Shown piece after piece: positions 27,337 to 34,291 of a stretch of 64,000 bases of DNA (its first letter is position 1; every line of letters starts with the position of its first letter). Position numbers and translations under genes: made by a program. Source of the DNA: an uncultured Ilyobacter sp. (GTDB lineage: Bacteria; Fusobacteriota; Fusobacteriia; Fusobacteriales; Fusobacteriaceae); the NCBI RefSeq assembly GCF_963668085.1, contig NZ_OY764058.1, positions 372,001 through 436,000 on the forward strand. Direction: 5' to 3'. The notes beneath the pieces were generated by a model, which worked only from the letters and a program-made list of their open reading frames with translations, was not told the origin of the DNA and ran no database searches.

Positions 27337-28140
27337 ATGTTTTTAGAAAATGGGGTAATCATAGAAAATAAAAATATGGGAGATAATTACTATCTCATGA
27401 AAGTAAAGGCGGTAAAATCAGCTGCTGCAGCCAAAGCGGGACAGTTTTACATGATAAAATGCCACAACGGGATTAGAATATTGGGAAGACCTATAAGCAT
27501 TCATCATGCGGATCCTGAAAACCACATGTTAGAGTTTTATTATGAAGTAATAGGTGAAGGGACAAAAGAATTTACCAATTATAAAATCGGCGAAGAAATA
27601 AGACTGCAGGGACCTCTAGGTACAGGTTTTGACACAGAGATAAAAGGAAAGAAGATTCTCGTAGTAGGAGGGGGAATGGGTATGGCTCCTCTGAAATATC
27701 TGGTGGAATCAGTAAAAAATAAAAATACTGTAACCATAATCGCAGCAGGAAGAGACGTAGGTGCAGTGAGAATAGCAGACAATTACCACTTCCCAAAAGA
27801 GGATATATTCTTTGCAACTGATGACGGCACTGTGGGAATGAAGGGAAATGCAGTAGATGCAATGAAAAAACTTCTTTCAGAAGAAAAATATGATATTGTG
27901 TATACATGTGGTCCTCATAAGATGATGGAGGCAGTGGCCAAGGTAGCGGCAGAGCACAATATGAGATGTCAGATCTCCCTAGAGGAAAAAATGGCCTGTG
28001 GGGTGAAGGCCTGTGTGGGTTGTTCTATAAAAACTAGAGATGGAATGAAAAGGGTATGCGCAGACGGACCTGTATTTGAGGCGGAGGTAATTGTGGATGT
28101 AAATCCTAAAGAAAATCCAGGATGCAGCTGCGGAAAATAA
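27337..28140 (+). CDS. pyrK: Dihydroorotate dehydrogenase B, electron-transfer subunit
   Basis: A 267-residue FAD/[2Fe-2S] protein. It has the flavin-binding RPISI motif near residue 51, the NAD-binding GGGMGMAPL (about 111-119), and the C-terminal cluster ligands C221, C226, C229 and C241 (ACGVKACVGC, VCADGP). It passes electrons from dihydroorotate via PyrD to NAD+. It is placed just before pyrD, as usual for type 1B enzymes. GAGGAGG precedes the ATG. Confidence 0.96.
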   Translation: MFLENGVIIENKNMGDNYYLMKVKAVKSAAAAKAGQFYMIKCHNGIRILGRPISIHHADPENHMLEFYYEVIGEGTKEFTNYKIGEEIRLQGPLGTGFDTEIKGKKILVVGGGMGMAPLKYLVESVKNKNTVTIIAAGRDVGAVRIADNYHFPKEDIFFATDDGTVGMKGNAVDAMKKLLSEEKYDIVYTCGPHKMMEAVAKVAAEHNMRCQISLEEKMACGVKACVGCSIKTRDGMKRVCADGPVFEAEVIVDVNPKENPGCSCGK

Positions 28141-28159
28141 TTTTGAGGGGTGAATAATT

Positions 28160-29080
28160 TTGAATAGATTGAAAACTAATTTTGTAGGTTTGGATTTGAA
28201 AAATCCCATAATGACAGCATCAGGATGCTTTGGGTTTGGGCTTGAGTATAAAGATTATTTTGATCCTAATGAGCTGGGAGCAGTAGTTGTAAAAGGTCTT
28301 ACTCTAGAGCCTAGAGATGGAAACTCTGGCACGAGGATAGCTGAAACTCCAGGAGGAATGTTAAACTCGGTGGGACTTGAAAACCCAGGGATAGACTACT
28401 TTGAAAATGTTATAACAAAAGAGATAGATGGGAAGATAACTAGTCCTATCATAACGAATATAAACGGAAGAACCATAGAGGAATATGTGGAGATAGCAAA
28501 GAGAGTTGAGAGTATAGAGGCTGTGAAGGCAATAGAGCTAAATATCTCGTGTCCCAATGTAAAAGACGGAGGCATGGCCTTTGGTGCCAGACCGGAAGTT
28601 GCCGGAGCGGTGACTAAGGCAGTAAAAGAGGTGACTTCTAAACCCGTCATAGTAAAGCTTTCTCCAAATGTAACAGACATAGTTGCAATTGCCAAGATTG
28701 TAGAGGAAAACGGGGCAGATGCAGTAGCTCTTATCAACACACTCCTGGGGATGTCTATCGATATAAAGAAAAAGAAGCCTGTTTTAGGGAATATATTCGG
28801 AGGACTTTCAGGTCCTGCGGTAAAGCCTGTGGCCCTTAGAATGATTTATCAGGTTTCTCAGGCAGTTAAAATCCCTGTACTGGGTATGGGAGGCATAAGC
28901 AATGTACAAGATGCCATAGAATTTCTTATGGCAGGAGCCTCTGCAATATCCCTAGGGACAGGAATATTTATGGATCCAATTCTTCCTGTGGAGATAAAAG
29001 AGGGCCTTGAAAAATACTGCCTTGAAAATAATCTTGATAATATATCTAAAATTGTAGGAGCGGCACACCCGAATAAATAA
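28160..29080 (+). CDS. pyrD: Dihydroorotate dehydrogenase B (NAD+), catalytic subunit
   Basis: A 306-residue FMN-binding class 1B dihydroorotate dehydrogenase. The N-terminus KNPIMTASGCFGFG, the active-site segment ELNISCPNVKDGG, and the phosphate-binding GMGGISN and SLGTGIF motifs are present. It acts with PyrK in the cytoplasm, oxidising dihydroorotate to orotate. The start is TTG at 28160, after GAGGGG; no in-frame ATG fits the family N-terminus. The gap to pyrK is 19 bases. Confidence 0.96.
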   Translation: MNRLKTNFVGLDLKNPIMTASGCFGFGLEYKDYFDPNELGAVVVKGLTLEPRDGNSGTRIAETPGGMLNSVGLENPGIDYFENVITKEIDGKITSPIITNINGRTIEEYVEIAKRVESIEAVKAIELNISCPNVKDGGMAFGARPEVAGAVTKAVKEVTSKPVIVKLSPNVTDIVAIAKIVEENGADAVALINTLLGMSIDIKKKKPVLGNIFGGLSGPAVKPVALRMIYQVSQAVKIPVLGMGGISNVQDAIEFLMAGASAISLGTGIFMDPILPVEIKEGLEKYCLENNLDNISKIVGAAHPNK

Positions 29081-29120
29081 TCTAAGTAAGAGAAATAATG
29101 AATAAGTTAGGGGGAATAAA

Positions 29121-29840
29121 ATGAATGCTAAAGACAGACTTATAGTGGCACTAGACTTTCCAACAATAGAGGAGGCAAAGGGCCTCGTAGAAATCTTAGG
29201 AGACTCTGTCTCTGTATATAAGGTAGGACTTGAGATGTTTCTAAACTCTAAGGGAGAAGCTGTGGATTATCTTAGCTCTCTTGGGAAAAAAGTATTCTTA
29301 GATCTTAAGTTTCACGACATACCAAATACAACTATGATGGCGTCTGTCTTTGCAGCAAAACAGAATGTCTTTATGTTTAATGTTCATGCTGCAGGTGGAA
29401 GAAAGATGATGAAGAGTGTTTCTGAAGAGGTGAAGAAGATAAATCCAGATGCTCTTGCTATCGCTGTAACTGTCCTCACAAGTTTCTCTGACGATGAGAT
29501 AAAAGAACTTTATAAAACTGAGCAGTCAATAAAAGAACTTGCAATGCACTGGGCAAAGGTAACCAAAGAAAGCGGGATGGACGGAGTTGTCTGCTCTCCT
29601 TGGGAAGCATCGGCTATAAAAGAAGAGTGCGGAAAAGACTTCAAAACAATCTGTCCAGGGGTAAGACCTAAATGGGCAGCGGCAAATGACCAGCAGAGGA
29701 TAATGACTCCTAAAAATGCCATATTAAATGGATGTGACTTTCTGGTGGTAGGAAGGCCTATAACCAAGGCTGACGATCCTGTAAAGGCGGCAGGGCTTGT
29801 CTTAGAGGAGATAAAAGAAGGACTGGCTGAGGTATGCTGA
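29121..29840 (+). CDS. pyrF: Orotidine 5'-phosphate decarboxylase
   Basis: A 239-residue TIM-barrel OMP decarboxylase, the last step to UMP. It carries DRLIVALDFPT at the start, the catalytic FLDLKFHDIPNT motif (Lys-Asp tetrad), CPGVRPKWA and VVGRPITKADDP. The last seven bases overlap the pyrC start, indicating coupling. The start has GGGGG upstream. Confidence 0.97.
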   Translation: MNAKDRLIVALDFPTIEEAKGLVEILGDSVSVYKVGLEMFLNSKGEAVDYLSSLGKKVFLDLKFHDIPNTTMMASVFAAKQNVFMFNVHAAGGRKMMKSVSEEVKKINPDALAIAVTVLTSFSDDEIKELYKTEQSIKELAMHWAKVTKESGMDGVVCSPWEASAIKEECGKDFKTICPGVRPKWAAANDQQRIMTPKNAILNGCDFLVVGRPITKADDPVKAAGLVLEEIKEGLAEVC

Positions 29841-31090
29841 TAAAAAATGCCAGGCTGGTACTGGAAAAGGGAGAAGAGGCTCTGAGAGATATATTGGTGT
29901 CAGATGGGAAAATTGCAGAGATATCTCCGGAGATAGGTATAGAGGATGCAATAAATAAAATATTTAAAGAAAACAGTCACCTTGTAAAGATGGATTACCT
30001 TGACCTCGAGGGGAGATACCTCATCCCCGGAGTAGTAGATCCTCATGTTCATATGAGAGATCCAGGATTGACTCACAAAGAGGGTGCAACAACTGGATCT
30101 ATGGCATGTGCTAAAGGCGGGGTTACGACCTTTATAGATATGCCTAATACAATTCCAGCAACTATTACAGAGGAAGCCCTTGATGACAAAAGAGGGATAT
30201 TTAAAAATAAGACTTATGTGGATTATGGTTTTCACTTTGGTGCCGCTGGTGATAATAACAGCCAGGAAATAAAAAGTGTAAAAAATATAGCTTCAACAAA
30301 GGTATTTCTTAATATATCAACAGGTAAGATGATGTTGGAAAATGATGAAATTTTAAATGACATCTTTTCTACGTCTAAAATCGTAAGTGTACATGCTGAG
30401 GAAGATATGGTAAAGAAGGCCATATCTCTTTCTAGAAAAAACAAGAATGAACTGTACCTTTGTCATCTCTCTCTCGCAGAGGAAGTGGAAGAACTAAAAA
30501 AGGCAAAGGCTGAGGGAATGAAGGTCTATGGAGAGGTAACTCCACATCATCTTTTTCTGAATACAACTCACAGAGATCAAAACGAAGAGAGTAAAAAACT
30601 GCTCGTAATGAAACCTGAGCTAAAAAGCAGTGATGACAATGAGTGTCTGTGGAAAGCTCTGAACAATGGAATAATAGATACAGTGGGAACTGATCATGCT
30701 CCTCACCTTTTATCTGAAAAAATGGAAAAGACTACCTTCGGGATTCCAGGAGTAGAACATTCTTTGGAAATGATGCTAAGAGGTCTAAAGGAAGGGAAAA
30801 TTAGCATGAAAAGGCTTATAGAGGTTATGAGTGAAAATCCTGCCAAAATCTTTAATATAAAAAACAAGGGGAAAATAGAAGTTGGATATGACGCTGATTT
30901 TGTAGAGTTAGATATGGAGAAAGAGAGAATCATTGAAAGAAAAGAAGTAGTATCTAAATGTGGATGGAGCCCTTATGAAGGACTGAAAACAGGAGGAACT
31001 GTGCTGACAACTATCGTCAGAGGCGAGATAGTATATAAAAATGGAAACTTTAAAAATAAAATCGGAAGGGAAGTGGAATTTAATGGATAG
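29834..31090 (+). CDS. pyrC: Dihydroorotase
   Basis: A 418-residue class I (PyrC/AllB amidohydrolase) dihydroorotase that closes carbamoyl aspartate to dihydroorotate. Metal ligands are in DPHVHMRDPG (about 71-80) and VHAEEDM; the active-site aspartate region is GTDHAPH. It starts within pyrF (ATGCTGA overlap) and ends within pyrE. A few residues (27-54) extend a loop relative to short homologues. Gene identity is clear. Confidence 0.95.
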   Translation: MLIKNARLVLEKGEEALRDILVSDGKIAEISPEIGIEDAINKIFKENSHLVKMDYLDLEGRYLIPGVVDPHVHMRDPGLTHKEGATTGSMACAKGGVTTFIDMPNTIPATITEEALDDKRGIFKNKTYVDYGFHFGAAGDNNSQEIKSVKNIASTKVFLNISTGKMMLENDEILNDIFSTSKIVSVHAEEDMVKKAISLSRKNKNELYLCHLSLAEEVEELKKAKAEGMKVYGEVTPHHLFLNTTHRDQNEESKKLLVMKPELKSSDDNECLWKALNNGIIDTVGTDHAPHLLSEKMEKTTFGIPGVEHSLEMMLRGLKEGKISMKRLIEVMSENPAKIFNIKNKGKIEVGYDADFVELDMEKERIIERKEVVSKCGWSPYEGLKTGGTVLTTIVRGEIVYKNGNFKNKIGREVEFNG

Positions 31091-31706
31091 AGCAAAACAA
31101 GTAGCAAAAGTACTTTTAGATACAGAGGCAGTGAGGTTAAATGTAAAGGAACCTTTTACATATGTATCTGGAATCAAGAGCCCTATTTACTGCGACAACA
31201 GGAAGGTGATTGGTTATCCAGAAGGGAGAAAGATAGTTGTAGAAGGTTTTGTAGAACTTCTCAAAAATAAAGACTACGATGTAGTTGCAGGTACTGCAAC
31301 AGCAGGAATACCTTGGGCAGCATTTATAGCCGAAAAACTTGATAAACCTATGTCCTATATAAGGTCTAAGAAAAAAGAGCACGGAGCAGGGAAGCAGATT
31401 GAAGGGGCAGACCTAGAAGGAAAGAGAGTAATAGTAATAGAAGACCTTATCTCTACAGGCGGAAGTTCTATAAAGGCTGTAGAGGCAGCTAGAGAAGCTG
31501 GGGCAGCCCATGTGGAAGTCTTGGCAATATTTTCTTATGAGTTTGAAAAAGCTGCTAAGAGTTTTGAAGAGGCAAAATGTGAGTGCCAAACAATATCTAG
31601 TTTTTCAACTCTTATAGATCTTGCAGAAAATGATAACTATCTAAATTCTGAAGAAGCTGAAATCGCTATGAAATGGAATAAAAATCCCAACCAGTGGGGT
31701 AGATAA
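31083..31706 (+). CDS. pyrE: Orotate phosphoribosyltransferase
   Basis: A 207-residue enzyme converting orotate and PRPP to OMP. The PRPP-binding loop is VIVIEDLISTGGSS, and the flexible catalytic loop is RSKKKEHGAGKQIEG. An upstream in-frame ATG at 31041 lies deep inside pyrC; the ATG at 31083, overlapping the pyrC stop by eight bases and preceded by GGAAGTGG, is chosen. It is the last gene of the pyr operon. No strong terminator follows; the ilv promoter begins 34 bases later. Confidence 0.95.
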   Translation: MDRAKQVAKVLLDTEAVRLNVKEPFTYVSGIKSPIYCDNRKVIGYPEGRKIVVEGFVELLKNKDYDVVAGTATAGIPWAAFIAEKLDKPMSYIRSKKKEHGAGKQIEGADLEGKRVIVIEDLISTGGSSIKAVEAAREAGAAHVEVLAIFSYEFEKAAKSFEEAKCECQTISSFSTLIDLAENDNYLNSEEAEIAMKWNKNPNQWGR

Positions 31707-31740: not shown

Positions 31741-31769
31741 TTGACAAATGGACAAAATTACTATATGAT
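31741..31769 (+). promoter_or_regulatory. Promoter of the ilv leader
   Basis: TTGACA (31741-31746), 17-base spacer, TATGAT (31764-31769). Transcription would begin near 31776. Confidence 0.78.
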
Positions 31770-31804
31770 TAGTACTAATAAAAGCTATTTATAGGAGAAA
31801 TAAT

Positions 31805-31870
31805 ATGACTTTTAATAGATTTGAATATAAATTTTTTCTCATTATCATACTGATTTGCTCTCAGGTTTAA
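31805..31870 (+). CDS. ilvBN leader peptide
   Basis: A 21-residue frame after AGGAG (ATG 31805) containing the run FFLIIILI followed by CSQV and a TAA stop. The cluster of Leu and Ile codons (31838-31855) lies directly before the first RNA pairing segment, as expected of a ribosome-mediated attenuator of branched-chain amino acid genes. No homology to E. coli IlvL is claimed. Confidence 0.85.
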   Translation: MTFNRFEYKFFLIIILICSQV

Positions 31871-32001
31871 ACTTTGTAAAAACGAAAGTTTTTTACATGC
31901 GAAGTTTGAGCCCTGTTTTGATCCTCATAAAAAAGGCTTGAGCTGAGAGTTAACAATGAATCAAAACAAGCTTGAGCCATCTGGTTTAAGCTTTTTTTTT
32001 T
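31864..32001 (+). promoter_or_regulatory. ilvBN transcription attenuator with five alternately pairing segments
   Basis: Segments A GGTTTAAACTT (31864-31874), B AAGTTTGAGCC (31902-31912), C GGCTTGAGCT (31935-31944), D AAGCTTGAGCC (31968-31978) and E GGTTTAAGCTT (31983-31993). Each neighbour pair (A:B, B:C, C:D, D:E) can form a 10-11 pair stem if G-U pairs are allowed. D:E plus the T-run (31992-32001) is an intrinsic terminator. A ribosome finishing the leader peptide covers A, so B:C and D:E form and transcription stops. A ribosome stalled at the Leu/Ile run leaves A free, so A:B and C:D form and E stays single. Confidence 0.85.
31968..32001 (+). terminator. Terminator stem of the ilv attenuator
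   Basis: AAGCTTGAGCC (31968-31978) with GGTTTAAGCTT (31983-31993), ATCT loop, 11 pairs including two G-U, then a T-run to 32001. Confidence 0.88.
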
Positions 32002-32114: not shown

Positions 32115-33800
32115 ATGAGTTATAAGAGTTTTATAAAAGGGTCAAGAATTGTATTGGAAGTTTTGAAAAGGATGGGAGTAAAGGATATATTTGGATATCC
32201 TGGAGGAGCAGTCATTCCAATTTACGATGCTTTTTATGATTTTGATGGGATAAAACACTATCTATCAAGGCATGAGCAGGGTGCCACTCATGCTGCAGAC
32301 GGATATGCAAGGACTACTGGTAAAACCGGGGTATGCATAGCAACGTCCGGGCCGGGGGCCACAAATACAGTCACAGGAATAATGACTGCCTATATGGATT
32401 CTGTGCCTCTTTTGGTAATAACAGGACAAGTTCCCACTAGTTTTTTAGGAAGAGATTCATTTCAAGAGTCGGATATACTAGGGATAACATCGCCAATCAC
32501 AAAACATAATTATCTTGTAAAAAATATAGAAGAGCTTCCAGGGATTCTAAAAGAAGCCTATGCTCTTACTAAAAAAGGAAGACCGGGACCTGTACTTATT
32601 GATATTCCAAAAGATATACAGATGCAGGAGATCTCAGTAGAAAAGTTTGAAGAATTATATGCAATTCACTGTGAGTATGTGGGAAATAAATATCCTAAAA
32701 AATATACAGCAAAAGATATCAATTCTGCTGTGGAACTTATAAAAAATGCCAACCAGCCTGTATTTATTATCGGCGGAGGGGTCATGAACGCAGGGGCGGC
32801 AGAAGAAACTCAAAAGCTACTATCAAAAATAAAGGCTCCTAGTGTAGCCACTTTGATGGGCCTAGGGGGAGTTCCTCATAATTTCCCAGGACACATGGGA
32901 ATGATAGGTATGCACGGAAAGGTATGGGCCAACAGATGTGTAAATGAGGCAGATTTAGTTGTTTCTCTTGGAATGAGATTTGATGACAGAATTGTTGGGG
33001 ATCCGGAAAAATTTGCTCCCCATGCTAAAAAAATACACGTAGATATTGATGCAGCGGAAATAAATAAAAATGTCAAAATTGATCTTCCACTTGTAGGGGA
33101 CGCTAAAGATGTATTAGAGGACCTTCTCAATGCAGGTATAGAGGCTGATTTTACTGAGTGGATGGAGAAATGTGAATCCTATATACTAGATGAAGGTTCA
33201 CAAGGGGATTGCCTGAATCAGGTAAGTGCAATAAAGTACCTAGGAGAGATTTTACCAGATACCAGCATAGTAGTAACTGACGTGGGACAGCATCAGATGT
33301 TTACAGCTCAACACTTTAAATTTAAACAGCCTCTTTCTTTTTGTACATCTGGAGGAGCTGGTACCATGGGATATGGACTTCCTGCAGCTATAGGGGCACA
33401 GGTAGGGAATCCAGATAAAAGGGTAATCTCGATCATAGGAGACGGTGGATTCCAGATGAATCAGCAGGAGCTTATTGTTCTCAAGCAGTACCACCTTCCT
33501 GTAAAGATCTTTATATTAAATAATGGGACATTAGGAATGGTTAGACAATGGCAGGAACTTTTTAATCAAAAGAGATATTCTGAGGTTATTCTGGATGTGA
33601 ATCCTGATTTTGTAAAACTTGCTGAGGCAAATGGATTAAGAGGGGTAAGGGTCAACAGTGTAGAGGAATTAAAACAGATCGAAGCGATGATAAATGATGA
33701 CCAGCCGCTTCTTGTGGATGTGGTAGTTCCTAGAGATTGCAATGTATATCCGATAATACCAGCAGGGAAGTCTTTTTCAGAAACGATAATAGGGGAGTGA
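32115..33800 (+). CDS. ilvB: Acetolactate synthase large subunit
   Basis: A 561-residue thiamine-diphosphate enzyme of valine/leucine/isoleucine synthesis. It begins GSRIVLEVLKRMGVKDIFGY; the catalytic glutamate is in SRHEQGATHAADGYAR, and the ThDP/Mg motif is GDGGFQMNQQEL through LNNGTLGMVRQWQELF. The FAD-binding middle domain is also present, typical of anabolic AHAS. It follows the attenuator and precedes its regulatory subunit by five bases. RBS GGTGGGAGA. Confidence 0.97.
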   Translation: MSYKSFIKGSRIVLEVLKRMGVKDIFGYPGGAVIPIYDAFYDFDGIKHYLSRHEQGATHAADGYARTTGKTGVCIATSGPGATNTVTGIMTAYMDSVPLLVITGQVPTSFLGRDSFQESDILGITSPITKHNYLVKNIEELPGILKEAYALTKKGRPGPVLIDIPKDIQMQEISVEKFEELYAIHCEYVGNKYPKKYTAKDINSAVELIKNANQPVFIIGGGVMNAGAAEETQKLLSKIKAPSVATLMGLGGVPHNFPGHMGMIGMHGKVWANRCVNEADLVVSLGMRFDDRIVGDPEKFAPHAKKIHVDIDAAEINKNVKIDLPLVGDAKDVLEDLLNAGIEADFTEWMEKCESYILDEGSQGDCLNQVSAIKYLGEILPDTSIVVTDVGQHQMFTAQHFKFKQPLSFCTSGGAGTMGYGLPAAIGAQVGNPDKRVISIIGDGGFQMNQQELIVLKQYHLPVKIFILNNGTLGMVRQWQELFNQKRYSEVILDVNPDFVKLAEANGLRGVRVNSVEELKQIEAMINDDQPLLVDVVVPRDCNVYPIIPAGKSFSETIIGE

Positions 33801-33805
33801 ATGGG

Positions 33806-34291
33806 ATGAAATACAGGGAAATACTTATAATAATGAACAATAAACCGGGAGTTTTAAGTAAAATATCGGGATTATTTCAAAAGAGGGGAATCAATATAGA
33901 AACAATCACTGCAGGGGAAAGTTATCCTGCAGACCTTGTGAGAATGACTGTGTGTGGAAACTGGGACGAGTACACCGTACACCAGATAATGGCTCAGGCA
34001 GAAAAACTTTTTGATGTGAGATTTGTAAAAGAGTTTGACGATAAAAATAGTGTGGACAGGGAGTTGGCACTTATTAAATTGAAGGCCGATGACTCTAGAA
34101 GAGCTGAAATAATGCAGGTAACGACAATATATAGGGGAAATATTGTAGATGTAGGAAGAGAGAGCCTTATAATAGAGATCACTGGCGGGAAAGATAAAAT
34201 CGCAGGTTTTCTTGACTATGTAGAAACTTTTGGGATTTTAGAAGTTGCTAGAACTGGAGTAACAAGCATGACAAGAGGAAGTGAAATGTAA
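33806..34291 (+). CDS. ilvN: Acetolactate synthase small (regulatory) subunit
   Basis: A 161-residue ACT-domain regulatory subunit: ILIIMNNKPGVLSKISGLFQ with RGINIETITAG at the N-terminus, and a C-terminal half ending EVARTGVTSMTRG. It gives valine feedback to IlvB. An open frame extends upstream to 33737 inside ilvB, but the ATG at 33806, after AGGGGAG, matches the family start. It ends the ilv operon; no ilvC or ilvD is nearby. Confidence 0.96.
   Translation: MKYREILIIMNNKPGVLSKISGLFQKRGINIETITAGESYPADLVRMTVCGNWDEYTVHQIMAQAEKLFDVRFVKEFDDKNSVDRELALIKLKADDSRRAEIMQVTTIYRGNIVDVGRESLIIEITGGKDKIAGFLDYVETFGILEVARTGVTSMTRGSEM

Follow-up and report, generated by a model that had tools for sequence, protein, structure and literature searches.

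A probable five-segment, ribosome-mediated transcription attenuator before ilvBN in an Ilyobacter species and its relatives in Fusobacteriaceae

What part does the RNA in front of ilvBN, the genes for acetolactate synthase, play in deciding whether these genes are transcribed? We took up this question in a 64,000-nucleotide stretch of an uncultured Ilyobacter sp. (contig NZ_OY764058.1, positions 372,001 to 436,000; hereafter the window), where an earlier note, made from the sequence alone, had read the leader at 31741-32001 as an attenuator with five RNA segments. The enterobacterial trp, leu and ilv attenuators have four segments, which pair as 1:2, 2:3 and 3:4. In such systems the position of the ribosome on the regulatory codons chooses between antiterminator and terminator, as set out in PMC1183508; the ilvBN leader would make the same choice with five segments rather than four. 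We conclude that 31741-32001 is likely a ribosome-mediated transcription attenuator of ilvBN that would sense charged tRNA-Ile (and tRNA-Leu) through a leader peptide and choose between terminator and read-through with five mutually exclusive segments. The leader gene, the five segments, the terminator and the downstream ilvBN are seen in the sequence, and the four pairings are conserved across genera.

The leader frame (Table 1) carries FFLIIILI at codons 10-17 and is followed by segments A to E, each of which can pair with its neighbors. With G-U pairs allowed, A:B joins 31864-31878 with 31898-31912 (15 pairs), B:C joins 31903-31912 with 31935-31944 (10 pairs), C:D joins 31935-31944 with 31969-31978 (10 pairs), and D:E joins 31968-31978 with 31983-31993 (11 pairs); base 31968 is the only D base that C:D leaves free. 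The promoter, the 21-codon leader and the T-run described in the earlier note were all found again in the sequence, and the complementarity of its five adjacent segments held with these pair counts. The locus thus has a short leader open reading frame (ORF) that is preceded by a ribosome binding site and contains consecutive codons for the operon's products, an intrinsic terminator (31968-31993 with the T-run) between the leader ORF and the structural genes, and an antiterminator that excludes this terminator (C:D against D:E) and is conserved in relatives, as an attenuator of this type should.

To score the chain of pairings we linked helices of at least eight pairs whenever the 3′ arm of one overlapped the 5′ arm of the next, and counted the helices so linked. 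The longest chain in the leader has four helices, a length reached in 0 of 1000 dinucleotide shuffles (three helices were reached in 25 of 1000), and among 3452 tiles of 148 bases covering both strands of the window a chain of four occurs once, namely in the ilvBN leader. The four-helix chain is no chance product of base composition. The RNA 31776-32001 also folds better than 200 of 200 shuffles (z -3.4). The resemblance of the segments to repeats of one sequence and its complement, which the earlier note offered as a clue to their origin, is a consequence of the chain of complementarity itself and adds no independent evidence on that origin.

Three pairings beyond those of the earlier note are present: C:E, with 17 pairs; A′:C′, which joins 31857-31864 with 31943-31950; and B′:D′, which joins 31914-31922 with 31960-31968. 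All three ilvA leaders of the genus offer a reading of A′:C′ too, with GCTCTCA pairing to TGAGAGT, but we rejected it as a conserved part, since it fills 69.6% of cells in the 11-sequence alignment described below and is uneven in Cetobacterium; it is a genus feature at most. B′:D′ is not kept in Cetobacterium in the alignment of leaders. Directly 3′ of segment B lies a T-rich stretch (31913-31922) that is kept in the aligned members, mostly as TTTTG or TTTTA. By the pause-site consensus it could be a polymerase pause site, or it could extend the B:C helix.

Conservation was followed first within the genus, where 7 of 261 leader columns vary among three Ilyobacter genomes, versus 29 of the 113 columns after the terminator. 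No variable column falls in A, C, D, E or the core of B, and two fall in outer B (31899 and 31900); the leader peptide is identical in the other two genomes of the genus, G001 and G002. We then read 20 regions, 19 upstream of ilvB in other Fusobacteriota and one at the second ilvB of the same genome. The same layout is found in 8 of the 19: in seven Cetobacterium genomes, with leaders such as MNKFKNLFTIIIIICFWVWI, it stands before an ilvD-ilvB operon (one ilvD was tested), and in Propionigenium maris, with the leader MINVVNRYVLISIIISGRLEE, it is followed by a class IV aminotransferase gene and ilvD. The three Ilyobacter, seven Cetobacterium and one P. maris leaders were aligned (11 sequences, 10 distinct), and all four pairings stand in the same register throughout. 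A:B and C:D are paired in 92.3% of cells, versus 16-62% in slid controls, and B:C and D:E in 96.7%, versus 7-57%. Two-sided changes occur at four pairs of each structure, in 8 cells for A:B with C:D (2.8 in shuffles) and in 12 cells for B:C with D:E (4.3 in shuffles); examples are 31869:31907 (A-U to G-C), 31872:31904 (C-G to U-A) and 31977:31984 (C-G to U-A). The alternate pairings, on whose conservation in relatives the earlier note had staked its proposal, are therefore kept in Cetobacterium and P. maris with compensatory changes.

A covariance model built from the 11 leaders (R1) was searched over 98 Fusobacteriota genomes. It gave 26 strong matches (E at most 1.4e-9), spread over 12 of the 98 genomes; 11 of these matches are the model's own seeds and 15 are not. 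All 26 follow a leader rich in Ile, Leu or Val, and 22 precede a gene of branched-chain amino acid metabolism while four precede a transporter of the bile-acid-symporter family (BASS). At E 0.5, 24 of the 98 genomes have some match, and those weak matches that were read are mostly chance. The 26 strong matches and one weaker member from a genome of genus g14 (L170) make up a set of 27 members, 25 of them distinct, from which L107:7653 had been dropped before the following pairing counts were made. In this set B:C and D:E are paired in 94.8% of cells, with eight two-sided-change pairs in 46 cells (13.7 when shuffled), and A:B and C:D in 88.7%, with five such pairs in 12 cells (4.2 when shuffled); the alignment was fitted to B:C with D:E and favors that structure.

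To follow the switch in folds, we masked the RNA under a ribosome, whose footprint was set to end 12 bases beyond the first base of the A-site codon, and folded the rest of the nascent transcript. With RNA out to 31981, where D has emerged and E has not, C:D is predicted at 0.71-0.98 when the A site is on one of the six Leu and Ile codons of 31838-31853 (in order Leu, Ile, Ile, Ile, Leu, Ile); it is 0.39 at Cys 31856 and does not exceed 0.02 at any codon between Ser 31859 and the stop codon, both included. This agrees with the stalled-ribosome logic of the earlier note, in which A:B and C:D form together. With RNA out to 31990 and the ribosome anywhere from 31859 to the stop codon, B:C (0.74-0.93) and D:E (0.64-0.69) form together. 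The switch region is unchanged for footprints of +10 to +16 and at 25, 30 and 37 C. Across the family, C:D is 0.13 or less with the ribosome at the stop codon in 23 of 27 members, and its mean over the Ile codons is at least 0.5 in 20 of 27. The only Val codon of the leader (31865) lies in the OFF zone, past the switch region. Val limitation, which the earlier note had listed among the conditions to test, is therefore not expected to relieve attenuation, and control of ilvBN is predicted to follow Ile and Leu, not Val.

These folds suggest the following mechanism. A ribosome held on 31838-31855 would leave A free, so that A:B and C:D form, E stays single and transcription continues into ilvBN. 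Once at the stop codon, the ribosome would instead cover A, so that B:C and D:E form and transcription ends, with a terminated RNA of about 225 nt. Because D:E is always the more stable helix once E emerges, C:D would have to persist until polymerase has passed over the T-run, and invasion by E should be slow because C:D covers all of D except 31968.

Several results weigh against this account. In full-length folds D:E is 0.93-0.98 whatever the position of the ribosome, and since it wins in every such fold, read-through would have to be kinetic. With A covered and RNA out to 31981-31986, B′:D′ (0.91-0.96) and B-D pairs form, and B:C appears only once E emerges; the stop-codon state of the earlier note, B:C with D:E, is thus borne out at 31990 but is preceded by pairing of B with D. 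When D has emerged and the ribosome sits on the stop codon, B:C is at least 0.80 in 18 of 27 members and lower in nine, including the window's own leader (0.02), and C:D is kept at the stop codon in four of 27: L003, the ilvBN leader of genome G001 (0.45), L158 (0.67), L161 (0.82) and L163 (0.97). In the three ilvA leaders a good switch is seen only with the ribosome at the fourth Ile codon, and the P. maris valS and tyrS leaders show no clear switch in the simple fold model. On the comparative side, the core arms are invariant within the genus and hence uninformative there on pairing; 31873:31903, 31904:31943 and 31944:31969 are unpaired in Cetobacterium; and P. maris breaks 3 of 11 A:B, 1 of 10 B:C and 1 of 10 C:D pairs (alignment A3). 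The number of pair types does not exceed that of shuffles in any of the four counts (11 and 27 sequences), the covariation score of A:B with C:D over the 27 members was reached by 16 of 500 shuffles, and A:B with C:D slid by -3 columns gives 14 two-sided cells against 12 in register.

Could the leader instead be an ordinary four-segment attenuator, in which B:C, C:D and D:E do the work, while A is complementary to B by chance or gives with it no more than a pause hairpin? Attenuation can do with a terminator and a single antiterminator, and A:B could pause polymerase, given the T-rich step after B in the aligned members. We nevertheless consider this unlikely, because C:D is lost in the folds once A is covered and because other genera keep A:B in register, with both bases changed at the pairs 31869:31907 and 31872:31904. 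It is more improbable still that D:E is a constitutive terminator with decorative complementarity around it and that the ilvBN promoter lies 3′ of it. D:E is indeed the most stable helix in all full-length folds, and 113 bases separate the terminator from ilvB; yet those 113 bases diverge within Ilyobacter, where the leader is nearly constant, and other genera keep the alternate pairings, which leaves this explanation barely credible.

A ligand-binding riboswitch or a protein-bound leader, for which translation would be irrelevant, would also put strong structure before a biosynthetic gene, and the leader of Veillonella ilvD has been published as a weak riboswitch candidate (PMC8632094). A search of all families of Rfam release 15 at gathering score gave no match in the window, and a riboswitch at the locus was rejected on this result; a T-box (RF00230) was rejected as well, with none at the locus at gathering score or at E 0.01. 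Translation of the leaders is indicated by three to six consecutive in-frame Ile codons in 25 of the 27 members (L163 has two and L170 none) and by length changes among members that stay in frame. Non-synonymous change per site is lower than synonymous change in the ilvD (0.055 versus 0.142) and ilvE (0.056 versus 0.171) groups and slightly lower in the ilvA group (0.099 versus 0.137); it is not lower in the small bass, sbp and metN groups, metN having been compared without gaps. The codon run moreover changes with the gene (Ile, Val, Tyr), and we regard a leader indifferent to translation as very improbable. Attenuation by a translating ribosome remains our reading of the locus.

The relatives of this attenuator precede a range of genes. 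The ilvA leaders, found in three of three Ilyobacter genomes, have five consecutive Ile codons, as in MNILLKEKKYENIIIIISSQVWTV (TIGR01127 tested in one). Eight Cetobacterium genomes have ilvE leaders such as MNTKLKFGFLLALIIIILSSSV (TIGR01122 tested in one), and four have BASS transporter leaders; the one transporter tested matches Pfam SBF and is under the NCBIfam cut-off, and an LDH-like gene follows the transporter in the two loci whose fetched stretch extends further. A second model (R2) adds three g14 genomes (E 1.8e-5 to 1.2e-4), where leaders such as MSSNTLKTVIIYIHILLIS stand in front of the gene for a family-5 solute-binding protein (one of these genes was tested). It also matches one locus in P. 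maris (E 0.0016), where the Val-rich leader MYKNAHKEVTVSIVDVRPEG is followed by engB and valS. A weak R1 hit in P. maris (E 0.02) stands before tyrS, with the leader MKKNFTLGNRYYYYYL and its five Tyr codons; it has its own helix chain, with C in two halves, and was left out of models R2 and R3 (as L169) because its segments do not line up. The codon run may thus be swappable, with Val and Tyr as candidate swapped sensors. Other model hits (L107:7653, L171-L173, L178-L181, ten of the weak hits L188-L201, and L223-L226) were rejected as chance, being plain terminators or lying in genes or beside tRNA sequence.

What happens when the leader is not translated? Because the number of segments is odd, an untranslated leader would first favor A:B and C:D. 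With no ribosome on the window's leader, C:D is 0.70 with RNA to 31981 and 0.19 with RNA to 31986, versus 0.37-0.86 at the latter point with a stalled ribosome. It is thus weakly predicted that the Ilyobacter leader fails open when untranslated, weakly because C:D fades sooner than under a stalled ribosome. Folds of the untranslated state depend on the assumed 5′ end, as in L159, where C:D is 0.03 with 30 bases 5′ of the ATG and 0.67 with 35. Cetobacterium leaders have a predicted sixth segment, Z, inside the first leader codons: at full length A pairs upstream at 0.47-0.98 in 19 of 19 leaders, and with D out four of the 19 still favor C:D (0.67-1.00). Z is not predicted in Ilyobacter, where A pairs upstream at 0.00-0.01 in the folds of six of six leaders.

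The his attenuator of Salmonella has segments A-F (PMC4046918) and is also covered in PMC10989985. Multiple segments are therefore not new in principle; with a chain of four helices and five segments, the ilvBN leader does differ from the four-segment trp/leu type. In the Cetobacterium members with the predicted Z, segments Z, A, B, C, D and E correspond one by one to his A-F of Salmonella and Escherichia coli. Untranslated his RNA terminates, whereas the Ilyobacter leader, in which the first segment is not predicted, may read through; pairing of a first segment with the second in untranslated RNA, the mark of the six-segment his type, was not found in the Ilyobacter leaders. The ilvBN element would be a new form of ribosome-mediated attenuation, close in principle to his.

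A tentative and rather doubtful extension is that one ancestral five-segment chassis of Fusobacteriaceae was copied before many genes and re-aimed by codon swap, with a removable sixth segment setting the default. The codon run would then be Ile before ilvBN, ilvA, ilvD, ilvE and the BASS transporter, Val before engB-valS, and Tyr before tyrS; leaders with the sixth segment would fail closed, as in his, and those lacking it (Ilyobacter) would fail open. Attenuators are usually described operon by operon, and the fast change of their RNA makes them difficult to trace. In this family a single architecture can be traced by compensatory changes across genera, before several genes of one pathway, on two contigs of one genome (ilvBN and ilvA) and perhaps from one amino acid to another. 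The family is a natural series for studying how attenuators spread and shift specificity, and the presence or absence of Z yields a testable prediction on untranslated leaders.

Among described systems, Corynebacterium glutamicum ilvBNC has a leader peptide before ilvB, a terminator, an antiterminator and an anti-antiterminator, and in its leader MTIIRLVVVTARRLP the Val codons matter for the Val response, with hairpins H1-H3 (PMC11857589). A branched-chain amino acid leader peptide and terminator logic are common to both, with three hairpins there versus five segments in Ilyobacter; the two are likened by description. Further literature on what is known is PMC1262725, PMC2494555 and PMC4833913, and no account of a leader-peptide attenuator of the ilvBN kind in Fusobacteriota turned up in open-licence PMC papers.

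T-boxes control amino acid and synthetase genes, like the ilvBN leader by transcription antitermination, and they read the tRNA directly without a leader peptide, whereas the ilvBN leader has one. In the same genome, three clustered T-box-like matches, all scoring below the Rfam cut-off (E about 1e-13 to 1e-14), lie at 81267-83719 of contig G000 C2. The idea that Fusobacteriota are without T-boxes was rejected, as 21 of the 98 genomes match at E 0.01, two of them above the cut-off.

The features of the locus are collected in Table 1. Promoter-like sites are about as frequent in the sequence as in shuffles (3 found versus 2.8 expected), so the match alone is no proof of a promoter; the site is invariant across the three Ilyobacter genomes. 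In a DNA search of PLSDB the leader and ilvB start matched a single record, pILYOP01 of Ilyobacter polytropus DSM 2926, at 92.8%, and ilvBN adjoins pyr genes on the presumed counterpart of this 0.96-Mb replicon. The I. polytropus leader differs from that of the window in 3 of 261 columns. Directly 5′ of the ilvBN leader, at 27337-31706, lie pyr genes named from the I. polytropus annotation: dihydroorotate dehydrogenase, its electron transfer subunit, pyrF, an amidohydrolase and pyrE. On another contig of the same genome (G000 C3, 1374989-1378212) a second ilvB-like gene with 48% identity stands beside ilvD, and neither reading of that region nor the model search found a leader of the attenuator family there.

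Table 1. Features of the ilvBN leader and the genes that follow it (positions in the window)
Feature	Position	Strand	Remarks
Promoter-like site TTGACA-17-TATGAT	31741..31769	+	sigma-70-type, 11/12 consensus matches; activity predicted
Leader ribosome binding site AGGAG	31793..31797	+	direct reading; 7 nt 5′ of ATG 31805
Leader peptide gene MTFNRFEYKFFLIIILICSQV (then stop)	31805..31870	+	21 codons; ATG 31805, TAA 31868-31870
Sensor codons CTC ATT ATC ATA CTG ATT (Leu Ile Ile Ile Leu Ile)	31838..31855	+	ON zone in masked folds
Segment A′	31857..31864	+	can pair with C′
Segment A	31864..31878	+	core 31864-31874; overlaps leader stop codon
Segment B	31898..31912	+	partner of A or C; core 31902-31912
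Segment C	31935..31944	+	partner of B or D; C:D is the antiterminator
Segment C′	31943..31950	+	partner of A′
Segment D	31968..31978	+	partner of C or E
Segment E	31983..31993	+	3′ arm of terminator
T-run of intrinsic terminator	31992..32001	+	ten T; direct reading
ilvB, acetolactate synthase large subunit	32115..33800	+	TIGR00118, 703.5 bits (cut-off 538)
ilvN, acetolactate synthase small subunit	33806..34291	+	TIGR00119 and NF008864 over cut-off; start by analogy with I. polytropus annotation

Other candidate attenuators were seen along the way. In four Cetobacterium genomes (G034, G018, G005 and G065; L218-L221) a Met-rich leader, MTNYNLISKTTMMNMMPMGVGTKN or close to it, with alternate helices and a terminator precedes a methionine-type ABC transporter, which in L219 is MetN-/MetQ-like with scores below the NCBIfam cut-offs. 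Folds of L220 place the Met codons in the ON zone and the untranslated state likewise. These may be a further or an independent attenuator. On the reverse strand of a g14 genome (G070), positions 436-625 (L222) carry alternate helices, a terminator and a leader, MKFHIFGLTAQFNNNNNNMSRFGL, that has six Asn codons. The start of asnA (TIGR00669 above cut-off) is about 720 bases beyond this element, with masked bases between. In Veillonella, L229 lies 5′ of ilvD and has a leader frame rich in branched-chain amino acids (MVLLAILVLVLFLVVNVIRINNSIEV...) and a GGCGATT terminator with which an upstream arm competes; the ilvD motif published for Veillonella as a weak riboswitch candidate (PMC8632094), if it is the same element, may be a leader-peptide attenuator. 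Terminators of the form AAGGCGATT / AATCGCC stand before ilvD in L114, L115, L118, L120 and L121 of other Fusobacteriota and in L229 and L230 of Veillonella, L230 having the variant GACGATT (ilvD tested in L114, L115, L121, L229 and L230), and they are possibly a shared second type of attenuator.
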